Origin: Nocardioides alcanivorans | GTDB lineage: Bacteria > Actinomycetota > Actinomycetes > Propionibacteriales > Nocardioidaceae | Assembly: GCF_021555175.1 (NCBI RefSeq) | Contig: NZ_JAKGRW010000011.1 | Span: 19,988-83,987 of the forward strand | Reading direction: 5' to 3' | Length of the DNA: 64,000 nt | Notes under the pieces: model-generated | What the model was told of the DNA's origin: nothing | Seen by the model: only the letters and a program-made list of their open reading frames with translations | Database searches by the model: none | In this document: in pieces, positions 6,228 to 29,813 of the stretch | Layout: every line of letters begins with the position of its first letter | Numbering within the stretch: the first letter of the stretch is position 1 | Program-made: the position numbers and the translations under genes

Positions 6228-9109
<2,882 letters not shown>

Positions 9110-9113
<4 letters not shown>

Positions 9114-9850
9114 GCCACCTCACCTCCGAGCATCAGAGCCTGGATCCGACTGGGGTCGGCACTGAGCACCGCCGCCGATTCCTCGGCGATGATCGCGCCC
9201 TTCTCCATGACGTAGGCGCGGTGCACCAGCGAGAGCGCAACGTTGACCGACTGCTCCACCACCAGCACCGAGGTACCGCGCTCGTTGAGCCGACGGACGA
9301 GCTCGCACAGGCCACCCACCACGACGGGTGCGAGGCCGAGGGAGAACTCGTCGATGACGAGCAGCTTGGGATCGTTGACGACAGCCTTGGCGAGGGCGAG
9401 CATCTGACGTTCACCGCCGGAGAGCGTCGACGCCGGTTGGTTCCGGCGCGCATTGAGCCGTGGAAAGATCGCCAGCGCGGCCTCGACTGCTTCGCGGACC
9501 CACTTCTGGTCCTTCGTCGCATAGCCGTGCATACGGAGGTTGTCGACCACGGTGAGCGAGCCGAACGAGGCCTGACCGATCACCTGACCGAGCCCCTTCT
9601 CCACCCGCTTGCGAGGCGACCAGTACGTGCTGTCCCACCCGCCGATGTGCACGGACCCCGAGTCGGGCTTGAGCAGTCCACCGATCACCCGGAGCGTCGT
9701 CGACTTGCCCACCCCGTTGGGGCCGAGCAGGGCCACCATCTCGCCCTGCTCGACGTACAGGCTCGTGCCGAAGAGGACCTGCACCGGTCCGTAGGAGGCG
9801 TTGACATCGGCCAGGCTCAGCGCCGGCGCTTCACTTCGAGAAAGAGACAT
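9110..9850 (-). CDS. ABC transporter ATP-binding protein, LivF type
   Basis: The 246-residue product has ALLGPNGVGKSTT (Walker A, about 38), TLSGGERQMLALAKA (signature, about 140), LLVIDEFSLGLAP (Walker B, with the SxGLAP typical of LivF) and VVEQSVNVAL (switch His replaced by Ser-Val, which is common as EQ.V..AL in LivF). It would pair with the fused LivG domain of 6228–9113 to form the heterodimeric ATPase. ATG 9850 lies inside the 3' end of the restored LivK gene, and its stop overlaps the fused permease start, so transporter genes are translationally coupled. Confidence 0.88.
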
Positions 9851-11194: not shown

Positions 11195-11231
11195 GTGCTC
11201 CCTCTCGTCCGACACCGTGGACGGACCAAAC

Positions 11232-11275: not shown

Positions 11276-13245
11276 TCACAGCTGGGTGAGATCGCGCTCT
11301 CGACAACGCTCGATCCACCGGTCGACGGCCCCCTCGTCGACCACCGCATCGGCGGCCTCTCCGCTCGTGGCGACCTGCAGGGCCCACCAGCGTTCGAGCG
11401 TGTCGAGGTCGATGACCGCTTCGCCATCAGCGACCCCGAGGGTCTCGGTCACCGGCGGGGTGCCAGCTGCGATCAACGGCGCGGCGGGCGCCATGAAGCG
11501 GCGCTGGAGCGCCCAGGCGACCAGGAGCACCCCGAGCCCGTTGAGGCCGAGGAGACCCCAGGGGTAGGTCTCCCAGGTGAGTCCGAACTCGCCCCTCTCA
11601 CCGTCGCCGACTCGACCGGTGATCGTGTAGGTGCCGTGGGCACCGACCGGAAGTGCGATCGGCACCGTGATGCGCGCGACCTGCCCCGGCTCGAGCCGGC
11701 CGATGCCGTCGCTGAGGAACACCGGCTCCGGGTCTCCCTTGCCCACCGCGATGCTCAGCCCCGGCGCGGTGATCGCGACGTCGCCGAGGTTCTCGACGGT
11801 CAGGCGCAGCTCCCGCTCCGGCGCAGCACCGAAGAGATCCTGGATGCGGGTGGCCCCACGAAGCTCGGCCGAGGTGACGGCCACGTCGCCCTGGGCCGCA
11901 GGCAGGTCTGCACCGGGAGCCGGGACCTCGTTGACCGGCAGGTCGACCGTCGGCGGGGTCTCCATGGATGGCGCCGCCTGCGACGTCGTCGACGGGCTGC
12001 TGCTGGCAGAGGTGTTGGGGCTGGCGGTGCTGCCCTTGCTCTCGTCATCACCACCCTCCTTGCCGGGGGCGCAGTGCCTCCGAGGTCAACGTCGATGGCC
12101 GCCTCCAGGGCGCCGCCGGCACGCGCCTGCTGGGCACGCAGCTCACTCACCTCGATGCCCTTCTTGACCTTGACCACCCCGGCGACCCTGCCGAGCCCAC
12201 CGGCACGCAACCGACGCTGGCCGACCTGCTTGCCGTTGTCGTCGAAGGCACGCACGCGCACGTGGCGGGTCGGATCCCAGTCGGCGCCGGCGAAGCGCAG
12301 TCGGGTGGCCTTCGCGTTGTCGCGCAGGGAGAGGGTCGGCGCCCCGAGCAGTCGAAGTGGAGCGACCGCCTCGTTGCCGAGCTCATCCTTGACCGCGACC
12401 GTTCCCCCTCCCGGCACGACCGAGGCGATCACGGGCAACGTGGCCTGACCGGCGCCGTCGGCCGAGGAGGTCGGCGTGCTGACCGGCTCACAGGTCGCGG
12501 CGTCGCACACGGCGGCACTGACTGCACCGTCCGAGGCAAGCCCGGACCAGCTGATGCTCACCGCATCACCAGCGCGGGCGGCGTACCGGACGTCCTGCCC
12601 CTGCACGGAGTCGATGGCGACCGATGGAGCCGGAGCGACGTCGAAGGCTGCCGTCACGTTGGTGTCGAGCGGGTCCGTGGCGGGATTGCTCCCGCCGACG
12701 TCACTGGCCTCCGGGTTCGTCTGGCCGTTGCAGACGACACGCTGATCGAGATCGGCGACAGTGAAGACCACGTTGCGGAGCACCAGGGTGGTGCCACCCG
12801 GAGCCGCGAGCTCGACCGCACCCTCGACACTCACCTCGGGCAGCGACTCCGTCGCATCCTCGGCAGTGAGGTCCACGGACACCGGCGGCAGTTCGGTACG
12901 CACCTGGTCCGCTCCGACGAGGTCGAACCAGTACGTCGCCGAGTCAGCTTCCTCGAGTCCCGTCGGAAGGGTCATGGCGAGGGCGAAGGTGCGTTGACCC
13001 CCGACCGACGTGGCTCCGGAGGTCGTGAGGTCGAGCAGGTTCTCGCTCCCCCACGGGATCTGCGGGTCTGCGGCATCGATGCCACCGGTGGCGTCGTCGA
13101 GGTCCGTGCCCGCCGCGGGCACGTAGCTCCAGCACCCGCCTTCCAGCGCGACTGGCGCAGCAGAGGCACTGGCCACGAACCCCGGCAGCGCGGATCCCAG
13201 CACCACCCCCATCACGAGCAGGGGCCTTACGCTTCGGTCCAGCAT
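11276..13245 (-). CDS. Large secreted/membrane-anchored protein of unknown function (frame broken)
   Basis: ATG 13245 follows GGAGG and begins a signal peptide (MLDRSVRPLLVMG to ASASAAP). The restored product is 656 residues. The first part has beta-rich segments and Cys pairs (VVCNGQTNPE, AAVCDAATCEP); the middle has a Lys/Arg-rich stretch; then a Ser/Thr-Pro linker; then a CARDB-like segment (ELRLTVENLGDVAITAPGLSIAVG). A single membrane helix near GLLGLNGLGVLLVAWAL precedes a cytoplasmic tail of about 80 residues. The frame breaks at the G5 run 12065–12069; one more base gives PPGKEGGDDESKGS. No LPXTG motif is present. It is divergent from the sortase gene and shares operator 13298–13310, which suggests a part in the same envelope machinery. 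Confidence 0.72.
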
Positions 13246-13297
13246 CGAGCAATCCTCCAGCGGTCGTCCTGCGGATCCACCCGGATCACTGACGCCT

Positions 13298-13310
13298 AGA
13301 TGATATATCT
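13298..13310. promoter_or_regulatory. Regulon operator site 4 (divergent promoter)
   Basis: AGATGATATATCT lies between the secreted-protein gene (start 13245, 52 bases away) and the sortase gene (GTG 13317, six bases away). AGAT and ATCT form a partial palindrome around GATATATC. It places the sortase and its neighbour in the regulon. Confidence 0.55.
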
Positions 13311-13316
13311 GTTTCT

Positions 13317-13976
13317 GTGAGGAGTGCATCAGGTCACATCATTTCGGCAGTGGCCCGCGTCGTGGCGGAGCTGCTGCTGACCGTCGGCCTGCTCTTCGCC
13401 GCCCTCGCCTTCTACCTCCTGGTCTGGACCAATGTGCAGACGCAGGCGGCCCAACGCGACCTGCTCCAGGAGTTCCGGTCCCAGCAGGAGAAGAGTCCCG
13501 GGCGCAGCACCGAACCGAGCACCGGCGAGGGCGTCAACGTGCTGCACATCCCTCGCCTGGGCAAGGACTGGGAGTGGGTCGTGGTCGAGGGCGTCGACCT
13601 GGACACGCTCAACGACGGCCCCGGACACTTCCCCGACACCGCCCTCCCGGGCGAGAAGGGCAACTTCGCGGTCGCCGGTCACCGGGCCACGCACGGCGAA
13701 CCGTTCGCGCACCTGGACACGCTCGTCGAGGGCGACAAGATCCATGTCGAGGCTCCGGACGGCTGGTACACCTACCAGGTGACCTGGAGCCAGATCATCG
13801 CCCCGACCAGCACCGAGGTGCTGGCTCCGTCCCCTGGACAACCCGGCAAGAAGCCCAAGGTCCAGTCGATGACGCTCATCACCTGTCATCCCCGCTGGGG
13901 CTCGACCGAGCGCCTGGTCGTCGGGGCCCAGCTGGTCGAGCACCGCGCCCTCGGCGCTGGCGCTCCCCGGACCTGA
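13317..13976 (+). CDS. Class E sortase
   Basis: The 219-residue product has an N-terminal membrane helix (VVAELLLTVGLLFAALAFYLLVW) followed by the sortase barrel. Catalytic residues are visible: His in VAGHRATHGEP (about 122), Cys in TLITCHPRW (about 188) and Arg in STERLVV (about 197). The TLxTCHP form is typical of class E enzymes in high-GC Gram-positives, which usually recognise LAXTG but also LPXTG. The likely substrates are the two LPKTG proteins at 4356–6201. GTG 13317 is the start, with no convincing Shine–Dalgarno sequence, consistent with a leaderless transcript from the operator-overlapping promoter. The gene is followed by its usual small membrane partner. Confidence 0.88.
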   Translation: MRSASGHIISAVARVVAELLLTVGLLFAALAFYLLVWTNVQTQAAQRDLLQEFRSQQEKSPGRSTEPSTGEGVNVLHIPRLGKDWEWVVVEGVDLDTLNDGPGHFPDTALPGEKGNFAVAGHRATHGEPFAHLDTLVEGDKIHVEAPDGWYTYQVTWSQIIAPTSTEVLAPSPGQPGKKPKVQSMTLITCHPRWGSTERLVVGAQLVEHRALGAGAPRT

Positions 13977-13989
13977 AGGACTGAACGCC

Positions 13990-14160
13990 GTGTATGCCTT
14001 CCTCTGGCGCCACCTGCCCGGCCCCACCCCCGTCAAGGTCATCGAGGCCCTCGCACTCCTGGTCCTCGTCTTCCTCCTGCTCATGCACGTCGTCTTCCCC
14101 GCCCTCGAACCCCACCTCCCCCTCGACGAGGTCACGGTCGGCCAGGGCTCCCCCACCTGA
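13990..14160 (+). CDS. Small membrane protein accompanying class E sortase
   Basis: A GTG-started frame of 56 codons begins VYAFLWRHLPGP and has one membrane helix (ALALLVLVFLLLMHVVFPAL) and an acidic, Pro-rich tail ending QGSPT. GAAGGA lies upstream, within the sortase stop region. Short proteins with W(R)xLPGP, one helix and LEPxLP are commonly found directly after actinobacterial class E sortases; that association is from memory. Its function is not known to me. Confidence 0.75.
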   Translation: MYAFLWRHLPGPTPVKVIEALALLVLVFLLLMHVVFPALEPHLPLDEVTVGQGSPT

Positions 14161-14284
14161 CCCGACCTCGACGTCACCGGGGCTGCCGTTGCCGGCGTGG
14201 CCGACTCCGGCTCGGCGCGCACGCGCAGATGAGAAGCGGTGCCGGCAGTAGTCTGGGCGCGGGGGTCCTCGAGGGAGCAACGAG

Positions 14285-14847
14285 ATGAGACCACTTCGAT
14301 ACTCGATCAACGTCACGCTCGACGGCTGCTGCCATCACGAAGCAGGCCTCCCCCGGACGAGGAGTCGATGCGCCACTGGACCGCCGAGATGGCGCGGGCC
14401 GATGCCCTGCTGTTCGGCCGGGTGACCTACGAGATGATGGAGTCGGCGTGGCGCCGGCCGGACACGGGCACGTGGCCCGAGTGGATGGATGAGTGGGAGA
14501 TCCCGTTCGCCGAGACCATCGACCGGGCAAGGAAGTACGTCGTGTCGAGCACCTTGCGCGGGGTCGACTGGAATGCCGAGCTGGTACGTGGCGACTTGGG
14601 TCAAGCGGTTCAGCGGCTCAAGCAGGAGCCGGGCGGTGGCCTGTGGGCGGGCGGGGTCACGCTTCCCCTGGCGTTGGCGGACCTCGGGCTGATCGACGAG
14701 TACGAGTTCGTCGTGCAGCCGGTCCTTGCCGGACACGGGCCGACCCTGCTCGCCGGTCTGCGCGAGCGGGTCCAGCTCGAGCTCGTGGATCGCCAGGAGT
14801 TCCGGTCGGGAGCAGTCGTCCTGCGGTACCGGCCCACGGGTCAGTGA
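14285..14847 (+). CDS. RibD C-terminal / dihydrofolate-reductase-like protein (frame broken)
   Basis: The restored 187-residue product starts MRPLRYSINVTLDGCCHHEAG and has the RibD_C features DALLFGRVTYEMMESAW (about 45–60), KYVVSSTL and GGGLWAGGVTLPLALADLGLIDEY (the NADPH-binding GGxxL region), ending in a VVLRY strand. The family reduces or isomerises small heterocycles with NADPH. The frame breaks at the C5 run 14350–14354; one more base joins EAGLP to PDEESMRHW. It is convergent with, and overlaps by seven bases, the last gene of the chlorophyll-type operon. No regulon site precedes it, and it may be an ordinary bystander. Confidence 0.75.
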
Positions 14848-15590
14848 TCGCGCAGGAGACTGCCGTAGCCGTGGAGCTTGTCGTCGATCCCGTTGTCACG
14901 CAGCGCCATCCACCAGGTGGCGGCGTTGATGGCGATGACGGGCTTGTCGAGCCAGCGCTCGGCCTCATCGGCGAGCTCGGTCATGCACAGGTTGGTGCCG
15001 CACTGCACGATCGCGTCCACGTCCGGGTCGTTGACGGCCAGCATCGACTCGCGCAACGTCTGCTCCGAGACGTGGGCGATCGACACGGCGCTGGGGCAGC
15101 TGAGGCCCTTGACCTCCCCCACGTCGAACCCGAGTTCGGTGAAGAACTTGCGCACGTTGGCATCACCGATCGGCGTGTAGGGAGTGACGACACCGATCTT
15201 CCTCACCCCGAAGAGCTTGAGGGCACGCTCGCACGCCTCCGCCCCGGTCGCCACTCCGAGGCCACCGGAGAGATCCTGGATCTGCTTCACGAACTCGCGG
15301 TTGCCCTCGACGCCGTCCCAGAAGGTCTCGGCACTCATGCCCATGACCATGTAGTCGGGTTCCATGGTCATGATGCCCTCGACGCAGTCGGCCATCGAGG
15401 CGCGAATCTGCTCGAGGAGCGCCTCCATGCCCTCGTCATCACCGATGCGACCATCACGGATCAGGATCCGCCCGTAGTGGGAGGTCACCCCGGGCACCCG
15501 CATCATGTCGAACTCGGGCTGCACGATCGTGTTGGTGCTCGGCGCGATGACGCCGAACTTGCGGCGCCAACCCAGTCGGTCCACGCTCAC
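14841..15590 (-). CDS. Maleate isomerase / arylmalonate decarboxylase family protein
   Basis: The 249-residue product belongs to the Asp/Glu racemase superfamily branch that includes maleate cis-trans isomerase: GVIAPSTNTIVQPEFDMM at the start (residues about 13–30), GVVTPYTPIGDANV in the middle and VQCGTNLCM with the second catalytic Cys at about 195. The first catalytic Cys position reads MGMSAETFWDG, without Cys, as in arylmalonate decarboxylases; it may therefore decarboxylate or protonate rather than isomerise. GTG 15590 overlaps the stop of the preceding membrane protein gene, so it is the last gene of the eight-gene operon from 21935. A maleate-type substrate is what oxidative tetrapyrrole breakdown would deliver, but that link is inference. 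Confidence 0.78.
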   Translation of the reverse strand: MSVDRLGWRRKFGVIAPSTNTIVQPEFDMMRVPGVTSHYGRILIRDGRIGDDEGMEALLEQIRASMADCVEGIMTMEPDYMVMGMSAETFWDGVEGNREFVKQIQDLSGGLGVATGAEACERALKLFGVRKIGVVTPYTPIGDANVRKFFTELGFDVGEVKGLSCPSAVSIAHVSEQTLRESMLAVNDPDVDAIVQCGTNLCMTELADEAERWLDKPVIAINAATWWMALRDNGIDDKLHGYGSLLRDH

Positions 15591-16312
15591 GCGGGCACTC
15601 CTGACTGCTCGTCGGCGGAGCTCTCGTCCGCCTTGTCGGACAGGTGGTCACGCAGCCACAGTGCTCCCAGCAGGAAGCAGAGCTGGACCGCGGAGTTGGT
15701 CAGCTGTTCGGCCCACTGCAACTCCAGCGACTGGTTCGGCTGAGCGGCCAGCGGCGGCAGGATGTTGGTGCCGAGCGTGTAGATCACGAACAGGTAGCCG
15801 ACCGACTTCTTGCCCGCCCGGAAGGCGATGACCGCCAAGCTGATGGCCATCACGCAGGCCGCGACCGCAGCGGCGATCAGCAGGGGCCAGTTCTTGTACT
15901 CACCGGCAGACCAGCTCATCCAGCCGGCACCCAGTCCGGCAGCGAGCGGGAAGAGGACGAACGGCCACGGGCCGACCTCGCGCCCCTTCGCCAGACTCAA
16001 CGACGCCCACGCCACGGCTGAGAATCCGAACGCCAGGCACGGGAAGAGCAGGTTCTCCAGCACCGGGTAGTCCCAGCAGTTGCTCGCCACCAGGATCTTC
16101 CACAGCGCCTTGCACAACCCGCCCAGGGTGACCAGCAGGCCACCCACCAACGCCACCGAGTAGGCCCGGGGCACTCGGAGCCGGACCGCACCGGCCAGGA
16201 TCCAGAACGCGGCTCCGGCAAGCAGGACCGGGACGAAGTCCTCCACCGCCAACGGAACGTTGTATTCGGTGCAGACGTCCACACCGCGAGCGAGCACCAC
16301 CTGTGTCGACAC
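15587..16312 (-). CDS. Multi-pass membrane protein of unknown function
   Basis: The 241-residue product has about seven hydrophobic helices (for example VPVLLAGAAFWILAGAVRL, SVALVGGLLVTLGGL, LLFPCLAFGFSAVAWASL, AAAVAACVMAISLAVIAF) and a charged C-terminal tail (DKADESSADEQSG). NCWDYPVLENLLFP in the third loop is a possible functional site. I do not recognise the family. GTG 16312 lies five bases after the stop of the dehydrogenase gene and its own stop overlaps the next start, so it is firmly inside the operon. A transporter or a membrane cofactor-binding role are both possible. Confidence 0.65.
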   Translation of the reverse strand: MSTQVVLARGVDVCTEYNVPLAVEDFVPVLLAGAAFWILAGAVRLRVPRAYSVALVGGLLVTLGGLCKALWKILVASNCWDYPVLENLLFPCLAFGFSAVAWASLSLAKGREVGPWPFVLFPLAAGLGAGWMSWSAGEYKNWPLLIAAAVAACVMAISLAVIAFRAGKKSVGYLFVIYTLGTNILPPLAAQPNQSLELQWAEQLTNSAVQLCFLLGALWLRDHLSDKADESSADEQSGVPA

Positions 16313-16317
16313 GATTC

Positions 16318-17133
16318 TCAGGCCTCCCCGGTGGCGAAGATGTCGCGCTTGCGGAAGCCTGCCGACATGAAGCGACCCATCGCCTTCGGCTTGGTCAACC
16401 ACGCGACCCGGGTGCCGTGCTTGGTGGCGCCGAGCATCTGGTCGACGAGCCACGGCGTCACGGTCTCCACGCGGTCGCCCAAGATGTTGAACACGCGCCT
16501 GACCTTCTCGAAGCCCTCCGGGTCACCCGCGTAGTCACCGACCAACAGGTCGGTCGCCACGATGCCCGGCGACAGGAAACCCACCTTCACGGGCGTTCCC
16601 TTGGCGTCCTTCACGAGCGCCTCGGTGAGATAGTGCACGGCGCGCTTCGAGGCGCCGTACGTCGCCATGCCCGGCTGGTGCTCACCACGCGAGCCGAAGC
16701 CCTCCATGTTCCAGATCCAGCCGCCGCCGGCCTGCTCCGCCATGCCCGCCTGAGCGATGGCCGAGCCGTTGAACGCACCGATCAGATTGGTCTGCACCAC
16801 GGCGTCCACGGTTGCCGGCAGTTGGGCGACCAGCGGACCACGAGGCGCGGACAACCCAGCGTTGTTGATCCACAGGTCGACACGTCCGAAGTGCGCAGAC
16901 ACCGCGTCCCAGAGCGCCTGCACCGCAGCGCGGTCGGACACGTCGGTGACGAGGCCGAGCACCCGGCCCGGGTCGGCCAGGCCCGCACGCAGGACGGTGA
17001 CTCCCTCGTCGATCGACGCCTGCGAACGAGCGCAGACCGCCACCTGGTGCCCCCGAGCCAGCAGCTCGCGCGACAGGCCGAGGCCGATCCCGCGCGTGCC
17101 GCCGGTGACGACGACGACCCGTGCGGCACTCAC
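16318..17133 (-). CDS. Short-chain dehydrogenase resembling chlorophyll b reductase (NYC1/NOL)
   Basis: The 271-residue product has TGGTRGIGLGLSRELL (NAD(P) site, residues 10–25), WINNAGLSAPRGPLV (about 92), GGWIWNMEGFGS (about 141) and YGASKRA (catalytic Tyr/Lys, about 163). Several blocks go beyond generic SDR features and recall plant NYC1/NOL: the Trp in WINNAG with a following RGPL, FNM(D/E)G.GS before the Tyr, PGIV.T(D/E)LL, and a C-terminal W(L/Y)LT.P(K/R) with RKRDIF resembling the NYC1 RRGRWF region. NYC1/NOL reduce the 7-formyl group of chlorophyll b. GTG 17133 overlaps the preceding stop. The comparison is from memory; a general SDR of unknown substrate is the alternative. Confidence 0.7.
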   Translation of the reverse strand: MSAARVVVVTGGTRGIGLGLSRELLARGHQVAVCARSQASIDEGVTVLRAGLADPGRVLGLVTDVSDRAAVQALWDAVSAHFGRVDLWINNAGLSAPRGPLVAQLPATVDAVVQTNLIGAFNGSAIAQAGMAEQAGGGWIWNMEGFGSRGEHQPGMATYGASKRAVHYLTEALVKDAKGTPVKVGFLSPGIVATDLLVGDYAGDPEGFEKVRRVFNILGDRVETVTPWLVDQMLGATKHGTRVAWLTKPKAMGRFMSAGFRKRDIFATGEA

Positions 17134-18084
17134 CGCGGCTCCCAGGCCAACGACCCGTGCACGAAGTGCGTGGTGGTCTCGCCGTGCAACAGCTGCCAGA
17201 CGATGGCGAGCTCACGGGTCTCGGGATCGATCAGGAACTCGCGACCGCGGATCTTCTCGACACCGGTCTTGTCGGCGCCGACGAGGTGCTGGACCGTGAA
17301 GAGGGCTCGACCGTAGGACGTGGCGTTGCCGAAGACCTCAGGGCCCTCGAACATCGTGCGGGCGCCGTCGCGGTGGCGGTCGAACGTGTAGGCCCGCTCG
17401 AGGTCGCCACTCCAGGTGATCGTGTGCCGGGCCGAACGCAGCGACGTGGGCTCGTGCTCGATGCGCACCCGCACCTCCCCTCGGTCGTCTGATCGGCGCC
17501 GTTGAGGAAGAGGGTGCCGGTCCAGGCACCCGCCTGCTTGGTCGGGAGCACCTGGGGACGCGGGCCCCGCTCCACCTCGAGCTCGCGCCAGTCGTCGACC
17601 AACTGCTGCGTGGCCGGGTTGGTCTCCCGGTCGGTGGTGCGCTTGTAGACACCGTTGAAGACGGCGCAGACGGCCCAGCCGTCGTGCAGCACGGACGAGT
17701 AGACCTGCGTCTCCCCGTCTGCAAGCACCTGGTTCCAGGTGCGCAGGTCGGCCTGCCAGCCCGGCGAGTAGTAGTTGGCCTCGACGAAGAGGCCGTAGGG
17801 CTGCCCGGTGCCGTAGAAGTCGGGGCCGGTGTAGACCCGGTTCTCGTCGGAGTCGACGACCCCGAAGTCGAACTGCGCACCGAGCTCGAAGCGGTTGCGC
17901 AGCGGACCGGCTCCGGAGAGCTTGGAGTCCATCCAGTAGCGGGCGCCTTCGGCGGTCACCTCGCTCGCGCGGGCGATGTGCTCGAACCCGACGTGGTTGC
18001 CCTGGGCGTCGAAGAGGCCCGGGATCCCGTGCCACTCCCCTCGATCCGCTTCTGCCACTCGCTGGTCTCGACAGCCTCACTCAC
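17130..18084 (-). CDS. Two-barrel calycin-like protein, possible tetrapyrrole-binding protein (frame broken twice)
   Basis: The restored 318-residue product starts with GTG 18084, overlapping the preceding stop (GTGA). It has two similar halves, each opening with a W-x-G turn: EGEWHGIPGLFDAQGN (about 18) and AGAWTGTLFLNG (about 180). Alternating polar/hydrophobic strands follow, as in lipocalin/calycin folds and the cyanobacterial CpcS/CpcT or DUF3598 bilin-handling proteins. Breaks lie at the C4 runs 17477–17480 and 18037–18040; adding one base to each gives TTEGEVRVRIEH and RIEGEWHGIP. The fold call is tentative. Position between the bilin-reductase-like and NYC1-like genes supports a role as binding protein or lyase for a linear tetrapyrrole. 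Confidence 0.55.
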
Positions 18085-18821
18085 CGGACGACCTCGTTGG
18101 TGACGAGTTGGAGGCGCACGCTCTCGGCGACGTCCTCGCCGAGCAGTCGGCTGATCTGCGCCCACACCTTGTCGACGTCGGCGCTGAAGAGCAGGCTCCG
18201 GTTGCGCGCGTCGCGCACGGCGAGGTCGGTGTCGGCCAGGTCGTCGCGTACGTCGGCCGGCACGTCGCCCTCGACCAGCGAGAACCAGTGCTCGAGGTAG
18301 GCTTCGACCGGACCGTCGAGCTGCCCAAAGGCCTCTTCACTGGCGCGGTTGGCGAGCATCCACGACGACATGACGGTGAGCTGGCGCGGATCGAGCTGCG
18401 CCCTGGAGAGTCCCTCCATCTCGTGCACCTGGTGGAACGTCTCCGTCAACGGGGTGTGCGCCCAGTCGTTGTAGACCATGTGGGTGCCCGCGTCAGCTCG
18501 CTGGACCAGGTCAAGGTGGAACGCGTAGTAGTCACCCGAGTGGACCGAGTCCAAGGTGAAGTGCGGCACCGGCGATCCGTCGGGCATGAACGCGAAGACC
18601 ATGTGGCTGTCGAGTCCGATCTGGGGCACCACGATGCCGACGTAGACCGCCTTGGCGATCCGCTCGCCCCGGAAGATCCGCACGGAGCCGACCGGGTCTG
18701 GCCCCATCACGGAGACCAGCGTCTGGAAGGGACCGCCGTCGGCTCCCTCCACCTCGGTGAGCCCGGTCCGGGCCACGATCTTCTCGACGGTGCTGACACA
18801 CAGCTTCTCGGGCAGGCTCAC
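18081..18821 (-). CDS. Bilin-reductase/RCCR superfamily-like protein (divergent)
   Basis: The 246-residue product shows, in the same order as the two RCCR-like proteins, a VPHF strand (SPVPHFTLDSV, about 105), an aromatic strand leading to an HLDLVQRAD turn (about 122; compare FLDSVPRSN and YSDLVPRHD), a SSWMLANRAS helix region (about 169) and a VEAYLEHWFSLVE helix (about 187; compare VDTWLQWVAEAE). DSHMVFAF is an extra conserved-looking block. I infer the ferredoxin-dependent bilin reductase fold with low to moderate certainty. GTG 18821 overlaps the Rieske stop and its own stop overlaps the next start. A ferredoxin-linked reduction after ring opening would fit. Confidence 0.55.
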   Translation of the reverse strand: MSLPEKLCVSTVEKIVARTGLTEVEGADGGPFQTLVSVMGPDPVGSVRIFRGERIAKAVYVGIVVPQIGLDSHMVFAFMPDGSPVPHFTLDSVHSGDYYAFHLDLVQRADAGTHMVYNDWAHTPLTETFHQVHEMEGLSRAQLDPRQLTVMSSWMLANRASEEAFGQLDGPVEAYLEHWFSLVEGDVPADVRDDLADTDLAVRDARNRSLLFSADVDKVWAQISRLLGEDVAESVRLQLVTNEVVR

Positions 18822-20107
18822 GCCTTGGCCTCCTCGTTCTCACTCTTCACGGCAGATTCGGTGGAGCCTTCCGGCTCGTCGCCGGCCCCACCGGCCGGTA
18901 CGTCGGCACTCGGCTCCGGGTCGGGCATCACCAGGCGGCGCTCGACGCGGGGCTTCACGTCGGGCGAACCGGCGAGGATCTCGCGGCTACGCACCTCCTT
19001 GAAGTTCCACGCGCTGGCGAGTTCGGGCACTTCCTTGCGGATCGGCGACGGGATGACGCGGGCCTCGACCCGCGCTGGCCCCTCGCCGACGATCGTGTTG
19101 CCCTCGACGCTCCAGCCCTGGTCGATGAGCTCCTGGCGACGACGGCGATAGAGCACTGCGTTGTAGTCGCTCTTCACGTGCAGCTCCGACGAGAGGTCGA
19201 ACGGCAGCAGCTCCGGTCGGACCGCGTCGACGATGCCTTGGTCCTCGCGCAACACCTTGAAGATGCGGCGCTTCGCGTCGAGATCGGCCCACGCGCCCTT
19301 GAAGAAGCCGCGCAGGGCGACGAACTTGACCAGCGTGGTCTCTTCGTCGATCGGGATGTTGGTGTCGAAGATCTTCATCGGCCCCATCGGGGTGTTGACC
19401 TCGATGAGCACCATGTTGGGCAGGAACCAGGTGGTCGACACCTCCACCGGGGGCCGGTTGGCGAGGTCCTGCTTGTTGGGGTTGATGAGCCCCCACAGTC
19501 CCTTGGACCGCGGCGGGTGCAGGGTCACCGAGGCCTTGCAGTGCCACGGCGACTCCTCGGTCCGGAACTCCGGCACCTCGGGCTTCTCGCGGTTGCCGAA
19601 GACGCCTCCGTGCACGAACGGGGTGTGTGCGACGTCGACACCGTTCTCGAGGATCCGCTCGTAGTTGGACTTCCACAGGAACGAGCCGGTGACGGCGCGG
19701 TAGTTCACGGTGTCGTCGATCGCGGACCAGTCGGGGATCGGCGGCCGCTCCTCCTCGGGGAGGTCACCCATGTAGACCCACACGAAGGAGTAGCGCTCAA
19801 CGACCGGGTAGGAGTCGACGCGCGCCTTGCGCGGGATGCCTCGGTCGGGGTGGGCGGGGATCTTCACGACCTCGCCACCCGGGTTGTACTGCCAGCCGTG
19901 GTAGGGACACACGATGCAGTCGTCCTTCACCTCACCGCCCGACAGCGCGGCACCGCGGTGCACGCACAGGTCGGAGAGGGCGACGATCGAGCCGTCGCTG
20001 CCCTTGCGATAGAGCACCAGCTGCTGGCCCAGGATCTTGATCTTCTTGGGCTTCCCTGCGACGACGTCCTTGCTGAACTCGACGGCGTACCAGAAGTTCT
20101 TGAACAT
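18818..20107 (-). CDS. Rieske non-haem iron oxygenase, pheophorbide a oxygenase-like by context
   Basis: The 429-residue product has the Rieske [2Fe-2S] ligands Cys48-x-His50 (CVHRG) and Cys67-x2-His70 (CPYHGW). The mononuclear iron site is visible as Asn155–Asp158–His161–His166 (NGVDVAHTPFVH). The last 45 residues are an acidic, Pro/Ala-rich tail. Single-component-like oxygenases of this type include plant PaO, which opens the chlorophyll macrocycle, but also VanA-type demethylases and steroid hydroxylases. Sequence alone does not separate these; the neighbours favour the PaO reading. ATG 20107 follows GGAGGAG. No ferredoxin or reductase gene was seen nearby, so electrons would come from elsewhere. 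Confidence 0.85.
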   Translation of the reverse strand: MFKNFWYAVEFSKDVVAGKPKKIKILGQQLVLYRKGSDGSIVALSDLCVHRGAALSGGEVKDDCIVCPYHGWQYNPGGEVVKIPAHPDRGIPRKARVDSYPVVERYSFVWVYMGDLPEEERPPIPDWSAIDDTVNYRAVTGSFLWKSNYERILENGVDVAHTPFVHGGVFGNREKPEVPEFRTEESPWHCKASVTLHPPRSKGLWGLINPNKQDLANRPPVEVSTTWFLPNMVLIEVNTPMGPMKIFDTNIPIDEETTLVKFVALRGFFKGAWADLDAKRRIFKVLREDQGIVDAVRPELLPFDLSSELHVKSDYNAVLYRRRRQELIDQGWSVEGNTIVGEGPARVEARVIPSPIRKEVPELASAWNFKEVRSREILAGSPDVKPRVERRLVMPDPEPSADVPAGGAGDEPEGSTESAVKSENEEAKA

Positions 20108-20119
20108 GAGGGGCTCCTC

Positions 20120-21117
20120 CTAGCGTCGACGGGCGTCGGCGATTTCAGGTTGGTGATGGCCCAGCCATCGGTCTCGGGCCGCCAACGCCGAGGGGTCATC
20201 GCCAAGCGTGGCAGCAAAGAAGGTGACGAGGAGGTCGAACAGCACCTCTCGCAGGTGATCCTGGTCGGCTGCCGGCGGAGCCTCGAGGAAGCCGCGGGCC
20301 GAGGTCGGGTCTTCGGGGGCTGCCGGCAGCATGTGGCCGGCGTCGGCGAGTTCCACCAACCAGGCTTCGGTGGTCTCGGGCAGCGCCTCGCTCCAGGTGC
20401 GCTCGATCGGGTCGTGTCCCGGCGCGCCGGCCTCCTCGCCGTAGCGGATCGCACTGGCGGCCACGATTCCGTCAGCAGTGCCACCCACCAGCAGCACCGG
20501 CACCTCGACCGGTGCCGGCAGCAACGTCCCGGGGGCGTGCCCCAGTTGCTGCGACGCCATCGTGTGGGAACCGTAGGTCGCCACTGCCCGGACCTGCGGA
20601 AACCACTGCGGGCGTGCTGACTGCAGCGCCACGGTGCCACCGGCCGAGTGCCCGAAGAGACCGATGTTGCCGAGGTCGAGCAGCCCGGCCAACGGGCCGG
20701 CCTCCTGCGCCTGGGCGACCGCGTCGAGCACGGCAGCCAGGGCGGGGGTGGTCGGCTTGCTCCCGTAGGTGTCGGGCCCGACCGCGCTCAGGTCGACCCC
20801 GGGCGTCAGGCCGACCTGGCCCGGGAACAGCTCGGCCACCCAGTCGAAGGTGACCGCGACGATCCCGGCGCGCGCCAGTGCCACGGCAAGGTCGAGATAG
20901 CCGACGGACGCGACGTTGATGCCCGGCAGCACGATCACCACGGGGTACGGCGCTCCGGCAGGATCAGCGGCCAGCATGCCGCTCATCCGCTCGATGTCGT
21001 TGCTCGCCTCGAGCGCCGGGTGGCGCATCGTGAGGTGCACGGTGTCGAGGGAGCCGCGGCGCCGGGCACCCGGACAGCCGTCCGGTGGGTCCGGACCAGC
21101 GCGGGCTCAGCAGGCAT
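20120..21117 (-). CDS. Chlorophyllase-like alpha/beta hydrolase (N-terminal frame break likely)
   Basis: ATG 21117 has GAGGA nine bases upstream, inside the stop region of the RCCR-like gene, and is the expected start. The main frame is continuous from about 21060, so one base appears missing between 21055 and 21090; the restored length is 332 residues. PYPVVIVLPGIN gives the oxyanion strand, NIGLFGHSAGGTVALQ the nucleophile Ser (about 158), PVLLVGGTADGIV the Asp region and LADAGHML the His. The arrangement recalls plant chlorophyllase/dienelactone-hydrolase-type proteins (PYPVLLFLHG, GHSRGG). Chlorophyllase removes phytol from chlorophyll. A general esterase of the same fold is the alternative. 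Confidence 0.68.
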
Positions 21118-21125
21118 CGTCTTCC

Positions 21126-21935
21126 TCAGCGCTCGTGTGGGCGGGGCAGGGTGCGGTCGCCACCCCAGAGCGCGCGCACCAGTTGCTGGGTCATGTCGGG
21201 TCCGAAGAACCGCTCACCCATCTCGTTGGCCGGGTCGCGCTCGGCGATGTTGCGTCGGGTGGCCTCGTCACTCGCTGCCAGGGCGGCCTGCTCCTCGAGT
21301 GGCACCCGCTCGGCCTCGTCGACCCACTGCAGCCACCGGTCGAGATGGCGCTCGGCCACCTCGGTGACCAGCTTGGTGGTGCGCTCGTCGCCCGGTGCCA
21401 TGAAGCACATCGCGGTCGGCGACAAGCTGGCGCGGACGAAGGCACTGCGACTGACGAACGGCTGCAGGAAGTCGTTCTCGGCGGCGATCTGCTCCCACTC
21501 GTCGTTGAGTGGGCCGTAGTAGCGGTCGAAGGAGTCGGTGTCGACCAGGATGTTGGAGCGTGGCACCGAGTCCAGGAACATCCAACCCTGCGGAAAGGCG
21601 CCGAGCGCCATCCCGAAGTGCGGGACCTTGACCTGCGGCCCGAGCCAGATCGTCAGGTGCACGTTGACGAAGCCGAGGGCCGCGTTCTCCATGTGCGAGT
21701 GGATCATCCAGTCGATCTCGGGACCGGCATAACCTCGCACGCTGCCGGAGGGACCACCCTCCGAGCTGAACGACTCGAGCACCTCGGTCGAGGGGTCGCG
21801 CTCCAGGTCGAAACGATCGGCGACCTTGGTCGCCATCCGGTCGACCAGCGCCTTCCAGTCGGCAAGGAGTGCGGTGACGTCGGTCGGACCTGCCTCGTCG
21901 AAGTACTCCTGCACCGACTTCAGGTTCTGGCTCAT
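21126..21935 (-). CDS. Red chlorophyll catabolite reductase (RCCR)-like protein 2, first gene of the operon
   Basis: ATG 21935 is chosen because GAGGA lies at the right distance; an ATG at 21947 has its GGAGGG too close. The 269-residue product has VPHFGMALGAFP, FLDSVPRSNILVDTD, FDRYYGPLNDEW, FVRASLSPTAMCF, LQWVDEAERVPLEEQ and SDEATRRNIAERDP.NEMGERFFG. These align by eye, in order, with plant RCCR as I remember it (NFLFEFI, LDLPPRKDLV, FVRSVFSPTA, a C-terminal RDKSFRRKSIEEDLDLQFPRMFGEE-like block). The C-terminal Asp thought to matter in the plant enzyme appears kept (SDEATRR); the central Glu appears replaced by Ala. The operator 21972–21991 lies 36 bases upstream. Confidence 0.75.
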   Translation of the reverse strand: MSQNLKSVQEYFDEAGPTDVTALLADWKALVDRMATKVADRFDLERDPSTEVLESFSSEGGPSGSVRGYAGPEIDWMIHSHMENAALGFVNVHLTIWLGPQVKVPHFGMALGAFPQGWMFLDSVPRSNILVDTDSFDRYYGPLNDEWEQIAAENDFLQPFVSRSAFVRASLSPTAMCFMAPGDERTTKLVTEVAERHLDRWLQWVDEAERVPLEEQAALAASDEATRRNIAERDPANEMGERFFGPDMTQQLVRALWGGDRTLPRPHER

Positions 21936-22043: not shown

Positions 22044-23476
22044 TCATGGCGTCGGATAGGCGCTGGCTGCCAGCCCGGCGGCGCCCGCCCGAAAGGCGCC
22101 GGGAGCGTGGATGACGCAGGGTTGCACATATTCGAGGAGACCCTCGTCGCCGTACTCCCGTCCCCAGCCCGATCGCTTCACTCCCCCGAAGGGGGCATGC
22201 AGCGCCATGCCGGTGCGGTTGTGGGTGTTGACGAAGGTGAAGCCGGCCTCCAGCCGGGCCGCCACCTCGAAGGCGCGGTCCTCGTCGGCGGACCACACCG
22301 AGGCGCCCAACCCCAGCTCGCCGGCGTTCGCACGCGCCACGACCTCGTCGAGCGACCCGTAGCCGAGCACCGGCAGGGTCGGGCCGAACTGCTCGGTGAC
22401 CACGATCGGGTCGTCGTCCGCAGCGCCGAGCACGAGGGTGGGGCGGACGAAGTGTCCGCGGGCCAGGTCTCCGACCACCGTGCCCAGCTCGCGTACGTCG
22501 GCTCCTGCGGCCCGCGCTCCGTCGACGAGCTCGCGGATGCGGTCGGCCGAGGCAGCGCTGACCACGGGCCCCATCGTGACCCCCGGGGTGAGCGGGTCGC
22601 CGACGTGCAGCACCCGCTGCGCCGCTGCCTCCAGCCCGGTCACGACCTCCCCAGTCGAGCGGCGGGCACATAGAGACGCTTGATCGCCATGCAGACCTGA
22701 CCGCTGGTCGCGAAGGCCGCCATCAGCATCCGCTCGTAGGCGGCGTCGTCGAGATCGGCGTCGTCGAGCACCACGGCAGGATCGTTGCCACCGAGCTCGA
22801 GCACGCTCGGCGTCAGCGACCTGCCAGCGAGCGACGCGATGGCACGACCCGCCGACTCCCCGCCGGTGAACGCCACCCGAGCCACCTGCTCGTGGGTGAC
22901 CAGTGCGGTGGCGGTCGCGGCCTCGCCGTGCACGACCTGCACGAGCCCTGCGGGCAGTGCGCCGGCGATCACGTCGAGCATCCGCGCAACTCCGAAGGGT
23001 GCCAGCGGGGAGGGCTTGACCACGATCGCGTTGCCGGCGACCAACGCCGGTGCCACCTTGAGGGTCGTGAGGATCAGCGGGGCATTCCAGGGCGTGATGG
23101 CGCCAACCACTCCGAAGGGACGGTGACGGACGGAGAGGCGACCGCGTTGCTCGTCGCTGGCCCGCTCCCGGAGCAGCTCCTCACCACGGCCGGCGTAGAA
23201 ACGCAGGACGGTGGCGGCGAACCCGGCCTCCCCGCGGGCGTCGCCGAGCACCTTCCCGGTCTCTCGAGCGGTGAGCTCGGCAATCGAGTCGAGTTCCGGG
23301 TCGAGCAGGTCGACGGCAGCCCGCACCAGGCGGGTCCGTTCGGCGACCGGTGTCGCCGCCCACAGCAGCTGGGCCTCCGCCGCGGTCCTGACCGCGACGT
23401 CGACTGCGTCCGAGTCGGAGACCTCGACCGTGCCGACCACCTCGTCGGTGCGCGCCGGGTTCTCGCGGGCGATCAC
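22044..23476 (-). CDS. Aldehyde dehydrogenase family protein (frame broken)
   Basis: The restored 477-residue product has FGVVGAITPWNAPL (about 128), GNAIVVKPSPLAP (about 150), FTGGESAGRAI, LELGGNDPAVV (general base Glu, about 230) and ATSGQVCMAIKR (catalytic Cys, about 265), then FGPTLPVLGY and the C-terminal FGGVKRSGWGREYG. The frame breaks at the C4 run 22649–22652; one more base joins PAARLG to EVVTGLE. GTG 23476 overlaps the stop of the FAD monooxygenase gene. It is the last gene of the six-gene operon from 29712 and would oxidise an aldehyde formed upstream. Confidence 0.85.
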
Positions 23477-24693
23477 GCCCCAGCTCCTCCGAGCACGGCA
23501 ACGGGCCTGCCGCTGCGCAGGGAGTTGATCATCGACGTGTTGAGCAGGTGTGCTCGCATCCGCTCCCGGTCGGCGGCCAGCGCGCGCAGTTCGTCGTGGT
23601 AGGCCCTCTGGGCATCCGGGTCGGTCTGGCGCAATCGTTCCCAGTTGTCGTGGGTGATGGTCTTGACGTAGGACAACGCCACCTGACGCCGTCCCTCGCA
23701 CGCAGCGTCGAGGTCGTCGAGGTGGCCGTTGCCGTCGAGGAGCGCGAGCAGCGCCCGCGCCTCGATGACCGCGTCGTGGACGCCGCTGTTCATGCCCATC
23801 CCGCCGAGCGGGTTGTTGATGTGCGCGGCGTCGCCCATGAGCACCAGCCGGCCCTTGCGGAAGGTGTCGGCGACACGCTGGTGCACGCGGTAGAGCGTGG
23901 TGTGCAACACCTCCCAGTCACGGCCGAGGTCGGCCACCCCGGCGAGCCGTACCTGGATCCGGGTCGGGTCGATCTCGACCTCGTCGGCCGTGTCCTGGTC
24001 GGTCGGGAAGAGCACCCGCCAGTGCTCCGGGGTCCGCAGCACCACCAGCCACTCGCTCGGGTCGAAGACGTAGTTGACCGCCGCGATCCCGGGCAGGATG
24101 CTCTCGAGGTCCTCGGTGGTGGAGGCCACCAGGAAGCGCTCCGGATAGGTCATCCCCTCGAAGGTGAAGCCGGCGCTCTGGCGCACCTGGGAATTCGAGC
24201 CGTCGGCGCCGATGACCCAGTCTGCCGTGAAGGTGTCGCCGACCTCGGTCGTCACGCTCGCAGAGGTGTCGGTGGTCGTCGCCTGCACCACCCGCTGCCC
24301 GAAGCGCACGGTGACCTGGGGCAACGCCTGCAGCGCCTCGAGCAGGATCGGCGTGAGCTTGCTCTGCTCGCACTGCACCCGGAAGGGGAAGCGGGTGTCC
24401 TCCGCCAGGATCCCCAGATCGAGGTCGGCGATGGGGCCGGTCTGCCGGTCCCGGTACTGGAAGCCCGTCGACACGATGCCGCGCGCCATCAGCGCATCGA
24501 GCACGCCGAGGTCGTCGAGCATCTCCAGCGACGGCGGGTGGAAGGTCGAGGCCCGCGACTCGGTCGCCAGTGCGTCTCCGGCTTCGAGCACGGTGACCCG
24601 GACCCCGCCCCGGGCCAGCACGAGTGCAGCCGTCAGTCCCACCGCACCGGCTCCTGCCACGATCACCTCGGTGGCGTTGCGCTGCTGGCTCAT
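23473..24693 (-). CDS. FAD-dependent monooxygenase (p-hydroxybenzoate hydroxylase group)
   Basis: The 406-residue product has the N-terminal VAGAGAVGLTAALVLARGG (FAD site, 11–29), the ADWVIGADGSNSQVR stretch (DG motif, about 165) and LVLMGDAAHINNPLGGMGMNSGVHDA (GD motif, about 295), all diagnostic of group A flavin monooxygenases. These enzymes hydroxylate aromatic rings or epoxidise and cleave activated double bonds using NAD(P)H and oxygen. ATG 24693 overlaps the preceding stop (ATGA). The substrate is unknown; a pyrrole or aromatic fragment is possible. Confidence 0.87.
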   Translation of the reverse strand: MSQQRNATEVIVAGAGAVGLTAALVLARGGVRVTVLEAGDALATESRASTFHPPSLEMLDDLGVLDALMARGIVSTGFQYRDRQTGPIADLDLGILAEDTRFPFRVQCEQSKLTPILLEALQALPQVTVRFGQRVVQATTTDTSASVTTEVGDTFTADWVIGADGSNSQVRQSAGFTFEGMTYPERFLVASTTEDLESILPGIAAVNYVFDPSEWLVVLRTPEHWRVLFPTDQDTADEVEIDPTRIQVRLAGVADLGRDWEVLHTTLYRVHQRVADTFRKGRLVLMGDAAHINNPLGGMGMNSGVHDAVIEARALLALLDGNGHLDDLDAACEGRRQVALSYVKTITHDNWERLRQTDPDAQRAYHDELRALAADRERMRAHLLNTSMINSLRSGRPVAVLGGAGA

Positions 24694-25604
24694 GAACCCT
24701 CCATCTCCCGGGCAGCCGTGGGGACGGCGTACCGCAATTCGTCTCTCAGTAGTTCGGGGAGCCCGACCAGGGCGGTCAGGTCGTCCCAGGGCATGCGCTC
24801 CACTGCTGCCGCGTGCCCGGTGCCGACGATCGCGGTCATGGTGCGTCGCACCGCGGCGGCCGCAGCCAACACCGCGGAGACCGGATGGATCACCAGCCGT
24901 ACGCCGGCACGCGCCAGCTGCTCGTCGCTCGGCCCGGCGTCGATCGGCCCACCGGCCTCGGACCGGTTGTAGACCTGCGGCAACGGACGTCCGTCGGCCG
25001 CCAGCGCAGAGCGGACGCTCAGCAACACGTCGAGCGTTGCCCCCTCCACGAAGACGGCGTCAGCACCTGCCTCCGCGAAGGCGCGACAGCGGTGCACCAC
25101 CGCGTCGACTCCTCGCACCGACAGGGCGTCGGTGCGGGCAACGATCACCAGGCCGGTGCCGGAGTCGGCGGCGGCCCGCACCCGATTCGCAGCCTCGTCG
25201 ACGTCGACGACCTCCTTGCCGCCCAGGTGACCGCAACGCTTCGGCGCGACCTGGTCCTCCAGGTGAAGGCCGGCGACACCGGCGGCTGCATAGACCTGCG
25301 TGGTGCGCCGGGCCTGCAACGCGTTGCCGTAGCCGGTGTCGGCATCGGCCAGCAACGGCACCGCGCCCAACGCCGGCACCAAGGAGCTGGCCCTGGCCGC
25401 GATGTCGGTGCCGTGCACGAAGCCGAGGTCGGGCAGGCCGAGGTCGATCGCGGAGACGGTCGCACCCGACAGGCAGGCCCCACGGGCCCCCGCCGCCACC
25501 GCCAACGCAGCCGAGACGGCGTCGTACACCCCGGGCAACCGGACCACGTCGGGGCCGGCGAGCAACTCCCGCAGTCGGACCGCGTTGGGGCTCGCGACGC
25601 TCAT
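24690..25604 (-). CDS. Isocitrate lyase / PEP mutase family C–C lyase
   Basis: The 304-residue product has DADTGYG (metal-binding Asp, about 87), LHLEDQVAPKRCGHL with the KRCGH catalytic signature (about 115–127) and IVARTDA. The KxCGH form is found in methylisocitrate lyase and in 2,3-dimethylmalate lyase, while PEP mutases lack it. Dimethylmalate lyase acts after dimethylmaleate in nicotinate fermentation; an alkyl-malate substrate would suit this locus. ATG 25604 overlaps the preceding stop, and the gene lies between an aldehyde dehydrogenase and a flavin monooxygenase in the same operon. Confidence 0.83.
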   Translation of the reverse strand: MSVASPNAVRLRELLAGPDVVRLPGVYDAVSAALAVAAGARGACLSGATVSAIDLGLPDLGFVHGTDIAARASSLVPALGAVPLLADADTGYGNALQARRTTQVYAAAGVAGLHLEDQVAPKRCGHLGGKEVVDVDEAANRVRAAADSGTGLVIVARTDALSVRGVDAVVHRCRAFAEAGADAVFVEGATLDVLLSVRSALAADGRPLPQVYNRSEAGGPIDAGPSDEQLARAGVRLVIHPVSAVLAAAAAVRRTMTAIVGTGHAAAVERMPWDDLTALVGLPELLRDELRYAVPTAAREMEGS

Positions 25605-28424: not shown

Positions 28425-28434
28425 CCTGCTGCTC

Positions 28435-29750: not shown

Positions 29751-29799
29751 TCTGATGTGAGAAGACCCGCGCACCCAGGTGCGCCTAAATGAGGGCCCC

Positions 29800-29813
29800 G
29801 GAATATATGATCC
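29800..29813. promoter_or_regulatory. Regulon operator site 7 (before the regulator gene)
   Basis: GGAATATATGATCC lies 58 bases before the regulator start. GGA and TCC are inverted around ATATATGA. Its presence suggests autoregulation. Confidence 0.55.

Follow-up and report, generated by a model that had tools for sequence, protein, structure and literature searches.

A conserved actinobacterial gene cluster with RCCR-fold proteins and a Rieske oxygenase, possibly for the breakdown of a tetrapyrrole pigment

What substrate is handled by a run of eight genes in Nocardioides alcanivorans that begins with a relative of plant red chlorophyll catabolite reductase (RCCR)? The run lies on the minus strand at 14841-21935 of a stretch of 64,000 nucleotides, hereafter the window (contig NZ_JAKGRW010000011.1, positions 19,988 to 83,987). 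An earlier note, made from the sequence alone, had taken it for an operon degrading chlorophyll or a related tetrapyrrole, by analogy with plants. Tetrapyrrole catabolism proved the best reading of the whole, but the plant analogy held only in part, as the Rieske oxygenase is not of the plant pheophorbide a oxygenase (PaO) type. From the enzyme families and their linkage we tentatively propose that this conserved actinobacterial cluster serves to degrade a tetrapyrrole pigment, with a chlorophyll derivative as the likeliest substrate (probability about 0.45). If haem-derived bilins are included, a tetrapyrrole substrate of one kind or another appears probable.

Organization of the operon

The eight genes form a genuine operon. 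They run head to tail, as first noted, with GTGA-type overlaps of four bases at 18821/18818, 17133/17130 and 15590/15587 and short gaps elsewhere:

RCC1 (gene 1), 21126-21935, minus strand: RCCR family protein, 269 aa
HYD (gene 2), 20120-21117, minus strand: alpha/beta hydrolase of the chlorophyllase/PETase/dienelactone-hydrolase neighbourhood
RIE (gene 3), 18818-20107, minus strand: Rieske non-haem iron oxygenase by its domains, with a VanA-type C-terminal domain
FBR3 (gene 4), 18081-18821, minus strand: second, divergent protein of predicted RCCR/ferredoxin-dependent-bilin-reductase fold
CAL (gene 5), 17130-18083, minus strand: two-barrel calycin of predicted DUF3598/BFA1-like fold
SDR (gene 6), 16318-17133, minus strand: short-chain dehydrogenase/reductase
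MEM (gene 7), 15587-16312, minus strand: membrane protein
AMD (gene 8), 14841-15590, minus strand: protein of the arylmalonate-decarboxylase/maleate-isomerase superfamily with only the C-terminal cysteine

The HYD reading frame is broken near 21055 (by eye), which leaves its N-terminal part out of frame; that of CAL has one break near 17480 and another, seen by eye, near 18035. Since the orthologues are intact and two nearby genes, ALDH1 (22044-23500) and CNH (30589-32261), are likewise split, these breaks are probably assembly indels; the assembly has 57 contigs, 91.9% completeness and 6.5% contamination. The cluster exceeds the eight genes: related genes reach to about 32 kb of the window and, on the other side, past a second RCCR-family gene (RCC2), beyond the window start.

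Conservation of the core

In 84,980 species genomes, 148 places were found to encode an RCC1 relative; the locus counts given here refer to the best 80 of these 148 (numbered L), whose genes were called with a GC3-based script rather than a trained gene finder. RCC1, RIE, FBR3 and CAL occur together in 79/80 loci; in 78 they follow one another in this order on the same strand, the exceptions being L030, which is rearranged, and L075, which carries RCC1 alone. When HYD and SDR are added, the six genes are present in 77/80 loci (all except L059, L075 and L037, the last of which breaks off shortly behind CAL) and in order in 65/80; in 11 loci, including metagenome-assembled genomes of Acidimicrobiia, HYD and SDR lie further away. 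All eight genes stand in order in 43/80, AMD being found in 65/80 and MEM in 45/80. Ordering of this extent argues that the genes keep company by more than chance. Carriers belong to Nocardioides, Mumia, Streptomyces, Actinomadura, Actinoplanes, Micromonospora, Nocardia, Catellatospora, Thermomonospora and Nonomuraea, besides the Acidimicrobiia genomes. The isolated RCC1 of L075 (10001-10819, Nonomuraea corallina) sits near flavin reductase and ABC transporter genes.

The RCC reductase family PF06405 is not common in the phylum, as only 3/396 genomes drawn from it had a match, the window's own among them. In the other two (L154 and L155) RCC1 is 41-43% identical and the order RCC1-RIE-FBR3-CAL is still kept. 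No RCC1 match was obtained in 72,556 plasmid records.

RCCR-fold proteins

The assignment of gene 1 to the RCCR family was borne out by the HMM search: RCC1 matches PF06405 with E 4.9e-16 and 59.1 bits (cut-off 24.9), against 32.1 bits for the bilin reductases. Similarly, the RCC1 family profile finds the Arabidopsis RCCR chains at E 1.5e-18 and bilin reductases at E 1e-8. RCC1 may also reduce red chlorophyll catabolite, the activity after which the family is named. A DPAN motif is kept in 80/80 loci. In Arabidopsis RCCR (residue numbers differ by 34 from those of chain 2zxk) we take the acidic residues Glu154 and Asp291 to be functional; in the alignment, RCC1 has Asp at the Asp291 position in 80/80 loci and Ala at the Glu154 position.

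FBR3 has no Pfam match at all, and both PF06405 and the bilin reductase model PF05996 were absent at E<=1. Searches of the FBR3 and CAL sequences against solved structures gave nothing meaningful, and fold comparison was used instead; the models of the two families were built from 30 and 26 sequences, respectively, picked for diversity. The predicted structure of FBR3 (pLDDT 95.7) matches RCCR and bilin reductases, and profile comparison with RCC1 gave a probability of 98.6. FBR3 is an RCC1 homologue and, on the predicted model, has the RCCR/bilin-reductase fold, in agreement with the bilin-reductase-like character first attributed to gene 4. Its PH...D motif, present in 79/79 members, places an Asp at the Glu154 position, and the DPxN motif is found in 0/79. 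RCC1 and FBR3, with acidic residues at the Asp291 and Glu154 positions respectively, therefore complement each other and may carry out sequential reductions or form a mixed dimer. In a 48-row tree they form two clades with 100/100 support; because both clades contain the deep branches L154 and L155, the pair is of old origin and has stayed together.

The window carries a further member of the family with two adjoining genes:

RCC2, 2580-3407, plus strand: second PF06405 protein, 52.7 bits against a cut-off of 24.9
ABM, 2197-2520, minus strand: small monooxygenase-family protein adjoining RCC2, PF03992 at 25.7 bits against 23.1
HYD2, 1503-2075, minus strand: alpha/beta hydrolase adjoining RCC2, PF12697 at 37.6 bits against 26.3

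Nocardioides RCC2 falls on the RCC1 side of the tree. In our draw of 37 genomes of the same genus, 7 carry RCC1, and all 7 have the second copy at 17-23 kb from it.

Other proteins of the operon

RIE carries the domains PF00355 and PF19112, and in 78/78 orthologues both the CxH...CxxH cluster ligands and an N..D..H....H iron-site pattern are kept; by these features it is a Rieske non-haem iron oxygenase.

The chlorophyllase-like character attributed to HYD is ambiguous. The window protein, its N-terminus out of frame, reached 22.7 bits with the dienelactone hydrolase (DLH) model (cut-off 21) and did not match the chlorophyllase model PF07224 at E<=1. Among the 58 of 76 orthologues taken into the Pfam scan, 27 matched PF07224, 35 PETase and 35 DLH at E<=0.001. 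Scores against PF07224 (cut-off 26) ranged widely, with 31.6 bits for L053, 15.2 bits for L042 and none for L034. A GHS[RA]GG motif occurs in 77/86 family members. For three secreted HYD paralogues the same model gave 29.8 bits (L105) and 30.9 bits (L111), above the cut-off, and 25.1 bits (L025), below it, while the secreted hydrolase L088:18746-19711 was not matched. HYD thus probably sits between chlorophyllase and PETase.

The two-barrel calycin fold supposed for gene 5 was supported by the structure predicted from a CAL orthologue, which is of the DUF3598/BFA1 type. None of 26 members matches a DUF3598/BFA1-type Pfam model at E<=1, and CAL differs from these calycins in being only 9-14% identical to them. 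In the Acidimicrobiales locus L034, another calycin-like gene, highly diverged (CAL match 26%), lies between CAL and HYD; the segment (13623-16538) also includes a gene for a DUF3891 protein and a pair of genes that no Pfam model matches.

SDR looks generic: it matches PF00106 with 128 bits, and its NCBIfam matches are all to generic models, the best at 123.7 bits against a cut-off of 255. Its kinship was compared with generic SDR models only, no model or sequence of the plant chlorophyll b reductases NYC1/NOL being included, and a search against solved chains at a strict E<=1e-22, which matched none, is uninformative. MEM has no Pfam family above cut-off.

For gene 8, both maleate isomerase and decarboxylase had been considered. 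Maleate cis-trans isomerase uses two catalytic cysteines and arylmalonate decarboxylase a single, C-terminal one. AMD matches PF17645 (62.5 bits against 25.9) and shows the C-terminal cysteine pattern in 65/65 orthologues, all of which carry MGMSAETFW at the place of the first cysteine; aligned to 2xed, the first-cysteine position is Met and the second cysteine is kept. The decarboxylase half of the proposal therefore stood, and maleate isomerase was ruled out by absence of the first catalytic cysteine. AMD remains below the arylmalonate decarboxylase equivalog NF052327 (56.4 against 225 bits) and, judged by its cysteine pattern, is arylmalonate-decarboxylase-like.

Genes flanking the operon

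Since oxidative cleavage of tetrapyrroles gives maleimides and related small fragments, a cell using these would need, downstream, amidases and a hydrolase for cyclic imides as well as CoA-transferases and enzymes of the itaconate/mesaconate type. We compared 20 extended flanks from 11 genomes, their called proteins clustered into families, with 20 control windows from the same 11 genomes. The control places were picked by hand, the families were defined on the flanks where they were counted, and the Fisher values for these comparisons disregard relatedness of the genomes.

An imide/CoA set emerged, comprising a dihydropyrimidinase-like cyclic amidohydrolase (IMIDASE; 5 flanks vs 0 controls), a PF04199 cyclase-family hydrolase (CYCLASE; 5 vs 0), an isochorismatase-like protein (7 vs 0), CaiB-type CoA-transferases (CoAT; 12 vs 1), MmgE/PrpD (7 vs 0), MaoC (6 vs 0), CitE (3 vs 0) and an HMG-CoA-lyase-family protein; aldehyde dehydrogenases (ALDH) counted 3 vs 2. 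One CaiB-type protein reached 245 bits with succinyl-CoA:mesaconate CoA-transferase (cut-off 700). The MaoC protein scored above cut-off with the mesaconyl-CoA hydratase model PF19315 and reached 202.8 bits with RipB (cut-off 340), and a RipC-like (citramalyl-CoA-lyase-like) lyase of the set stayed under its cut-off.

In the genome of the window, a CoAT-CYCLASE-MmgE-IMIDASE run lies at 8-13 kb of the contig; its imidase gene is placed a little beyond the edge of the window, at a distance of 27.8 kb from RCC1. Among the 37 genomes of the genus, an orthologue of this imidase (at least 72% identity) is present in 7/7 with RCC1 and in 2/30 without. At the place where other loci hold the imidase, L154 has a HyuA/HyuB-type pair (by eye) beside CoA-transferase, cyclase and MmgE, which would be a swap that keeps the reaction type.

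A surface/import set was likewise found: neocarzinostatin-family secreted proteins (NCS; 8 vs 0), weakly WxL-like surface proteins that score below cut-off (SURF23; 8 vs 0), a class E sortase, and a LIV-type ABC importer (10 vs 2) with its putative substrate-binding protein (SBP; 8 vs 0). Its members in the window are:

Branched-chain-type ABC importer, permeases and ATPases, 6228-9850, minus strand: PF02653 and PF00005 in 6228-9113
SBP, 10049-11215, minus strand: no Pfam match; linkage alone suggests that it is the importer's substrate-binding protein
SURF23-family secreted surface protein, 11800-13329, minus strand: no NCBIfam match
Sortase, 13317-13976, plus strand: same family as the class E sortase L119:4207-4875 (NF033747, 218 bits against 160)

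The SURF23 member of L117 (Streptomyces) scores 22.1 bits with PF13731 (cut-off 25). Neocarzinostatin-family secreted proteins near the cluster are exemplified by L042:19196-20002, L067:5846-6253 and L117:13274-13978; the family in L117 matches PF00960 with 48.9 bits against 25, its NCBIfam chromoprotein scores being below cut-off. In other settings its members are known as carriers of enediyne chromophores.

Upstream of RCC1 the window carries the following genes, whose counts among the 80 loci are affected by many loci ending before they are reached:

ALDH1, 22044-23500 (5′ end approximate), minus strand: aldehyde dehydrogenase in two reading frames; PF00171 in 22044-22643; 61/80 loci
FMO, 23473-24693, minus strand: FAD-dependent monooxygenase of the aromatic-hydroxylase type; PF01494, 203 bits; 56/80 loci
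PEPM, 24690-25604, minus strand: lyase of the PEP-mutase/methylisocitrate-lyase superfamily; PF13714; 22/80 loci
ALDH2, 25738-27099, minus strand: aldehyde dehydrogenase; PF00171; 60/80 loci
ACAD, 27096-28535, minus strand: acyl-CoA-dehydrogenase fold; PF02770/PF02771/PF08028; 45/80 loci
FLR, 28435-29712, minus strand: flavin reductase (PF01613, 156 bits) with a C-terminal HMGL-like domain (PF00682, 46.2 bits); 46/80 loci
GntR-family regulator, 29779-30582, plus strand: divergent; PF00392, PF07729
CNH, 30589-32261, minus strand: carbon-nitrogen hydrolase with a long C-terminal extension, apparently split; PF00795 in 31002-32261; 76/80 loci

PEPM scores 202.8 bits with prpB, under the cut-off of 354.4. 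ACAD may supply the oxygenase component of a flavin monooxygenase of the two-component kind; an orthologue scores under cut-off with the FadE16- and HsaA-like NCBIfam models. CNH orthologues have a median length of 545 aa. The fusion of FLR to a partial HMGL-like domain recurs in Thermomonospora (L053:1138-2421), in which locus a small Dabb (PF07876) protein (7972-8253), of a family found in 21 loci, lies between ALDH1 and CNH. In other genera IclR-type regulators are found near the cluster.

A possible pathway and the alternatives

Plants act on chlorophyll with an esterase, then a Rieske enzyme, then RCCR. A simple model of the actinobacterial cluster would begin with capture and import of a pigment or a fragment of it by the secreted neocarzinostatin-like and surface proteins and the ABC importer. 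HYD would cut an ester and AMD take off the carboxyl group thereby freed, as might happen at the isocyclic ring of chlorophyll, after which RIE would oxygenate or open the ring system. The linear product would be reduced by RCC1 and FBR3 with electrons from ferredoxin, perhaps one after the other, perhaps jointly in a mixed dimer, and held by CAL. SDR, FLR/ACAD, FMO and the aldehyde dehydrogenases could then cut it to one-ring imides; in passages of PMC7318184, oxidative cleavage of tetrapyrroles is described as giving maleimides, hematinic acid and related one- or two-ring fragments. Ammonia would be released by the cyclic-amide hydrolases (imidases are placed among the cyclic amidohydrolases in part of PMC4437985), CNH and the isochorismatase-like amidase. 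Finally, the branched dicarboxylates would be split into central metabolites by the CoA-transferases, MmgE/PrpD, the mesaconyl-CoA-hydratase-like and citramalyl-CoA-lyase-like enzymes and PEPM. The fullest version of this scheme is complete mineralisation of chlorophyll: capture by chromoproteins and a sortase layer, import, opening by a non-PaO Rieske enzyme, RCC1-FBR3 partners splitting the two acidic positions, and a maleimide-to-CoA route turning four rings into acetyl- and propionyl-CoA, pyruvate and ammonia. As a whole it is rather doubtful.

Several observations weigh against a chlorophyll pathway. The proposal that RIE is a plant-type PaO was not borne out: the PaO domain PF08417 is not matched by RIE at E<=1 and is without match in the genome, whereas 2/14 control genomes matched it, 1 of them above cut-off. 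The best solved relative of RIE is SxtDIOX; SxtT, methylxanthine demethylases and dicamba demethylase are also among its closest. For HYD orthologues, PETase matches are commoner than chlorophyllase matches, and among solved chains their closest matches are polyester hydrolases and cutinases. AMD, by its cysteines, is not a maleate isomerase. CoAT, MmgE and IMIDASE genes also occur together without RCC1 in two genomes (G032, locus L156, and G014, locus L157), so this set may serve a use of its own. Moreover, the FBR3 fold is also that of a subunit of the chloroplast FtsHi motor complex, and the closest structures to CAL are not tetrapyrrole enzymes; it is partly for these last two reasons that we do not rate the chlorophyll reading higher. 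A search for the STAY-GREEN Mg-dechelatase (PF12638), not seen earlier in the operon, matched 0/17 genomes and is uninformative, the control genomes being without match too.

Part of this evidence would suit a general ring-catabolic cluster in which RCCR-fold proteins have been recruited to an aromatic or N-heterocyclic substrate that is not a tetrapyrrole. The relatives of RIE, the FtsHi subunit and the closest structures to CAL all point that way, as do the lack in RCC1 of one of the two RCCR acidic residues and the presence of monooxygenases, aldehyde dehydrogenases and cyclic-amide hydrolases, families of general ring catabolism. We consider this rather unlikely. Unlikely too, and slightly more so, is degradation of haem-derived bilins (biliverdin, bilirubin, urobilins), where an unlinked haem oxygenase would open haem, RCC1 and FBR3 would reduce the product and RIE and the monooxygenases would cut it. 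Haem oxygenase is indeed commoner with RCC1 (7/7 genomes against 13/30 of the same genus without RCC1), which speaks for bilins rather than chlorophyll. In all 7, however, it sits elsewhere in the genome, and we rejected it as a member of the cluster. Furthermore, RCC1 is closer to RCCR than to the bilin reductases by the scores given above, and an ester hydrolase and a decarboxylase-type gene would be superfluous for bilins with free propionates. Detoxification of photosensitising porphyrins, or synthesis of a pigment-derived secondary metabolite, would fit the neocarzinostatin-family proteins in 8/20 flanks. The recurring neighbours are nevertheless CoA-transferases, lyases and aldehyde dehydrogenases typical of catabolism, together with importer genes, and no biosynthetic synthase came to notice, though no search was directed at one; a role other than feeding is very improbable.

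Comparison with known systems

The plant PAO/phyllobilin pathway (PPH/CLH, PaO, RCCR) is the nearest counterpart of the proposed chlorophyll pathway. In both, one substrate would be handled by a hydrolase of the esterase type, a Rieske oxygenase and a protein of the RCCR family, and RCC1 and plant RCCR belong to the same Pfam family. The cluster differs in its Rieske enzyme, which is not of the PaO family, in the added second RCCR-fold protein and calycin, and in its actinobacterial host. Plant chlorophyll breakdown mainly ends at phyllobilins, whereas the cluster would go on to imide and CoA chemistry. Since this pathway, the only comparable one, surely shares one enzyme family (RCCR) and mainly ends where the second half of the cluster would begin, the system would be new in kind. 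The earlier note had known of no bacterial catabolic operon of such composition; among the matches listed from the open PMC literature, to which the search was confined, we likewise found no description of a bacterial RCCR-containing catabolic cluster and no bacterial genes carrying a tetrapyrrole beyond phyllobilins.

Production and degradation of chlorophyll are put at about 10^12 kilograms a year in a passage of PMC7318184. If the chlorophyll reading is true, the cluster shows how bacteria recycle one of Earth's most abundant pigments, names such genes and gives an environmental marker for the process; an old question, the microbial fate of chlorophyll nitrogen and carbon, becomes open to experiment with strains that can be cultured. 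Many heterotrophic actinobacteria would then have RCCR-type enzymes, which are as a rule discussed with respect to plants and cyanobacteria, and a candidate ligand would be at hand for orphan families such as the DUF3598-like calycins and the neocarzinostatin-like proteins outside enediyne clusters.

With the ferredoxin-dependent bilin reductases (PcyA, PebA, PebB, HY2, PebS), FBR3 and RCC1 have a fold in common. The bacterial pre-PcyA clusters are likewise gene clusters of non-photosynthetic bacteria; as described in parts of PMC10151467, they carry bilin-binding globins, V4R and iron-sulphur proteins, whereas the present cluster has a Rieske oxygenase and a catabolic set. In the main text of that article the strings 'actinobacteri' and 'Rieske' have 0 occurrences.

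The sortase-anchored Isd system of haem capture resembles the cluster in that secreted proteins with a putative ligand-binding role are combined with a sortase and an ABC importer, here near RCCR-fold genes. Instead of NEAT domains, the cluster has neocarzinostatin-like and weakly WxL-like proteins, and its importer is of the LIV type. ABM, beside RCC2, was considered as a haem monooxygenase of the IsdG/MhuD type and rejected: despite its PF03992 match, it lacks, by eye, two of the three residues that we take to form the IsdG active site, and has no NCBIfam match.

Finally, the larger cluster shares with itaconate/mesaconate degradation (RipABC; Ict/Ich/Ccl) a CoA-transferase, a RipB-like hydratase and a RipC-like lyase; these enzymes all score under the NCBIfam cut-offs and are linked to imide hydrolases and RCCR-fold proteins. 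A second imidase-like gene is present elsewhere in the genome of the window, at G000:C19:420128-421569, with 74% and 61% identity in two pieces.

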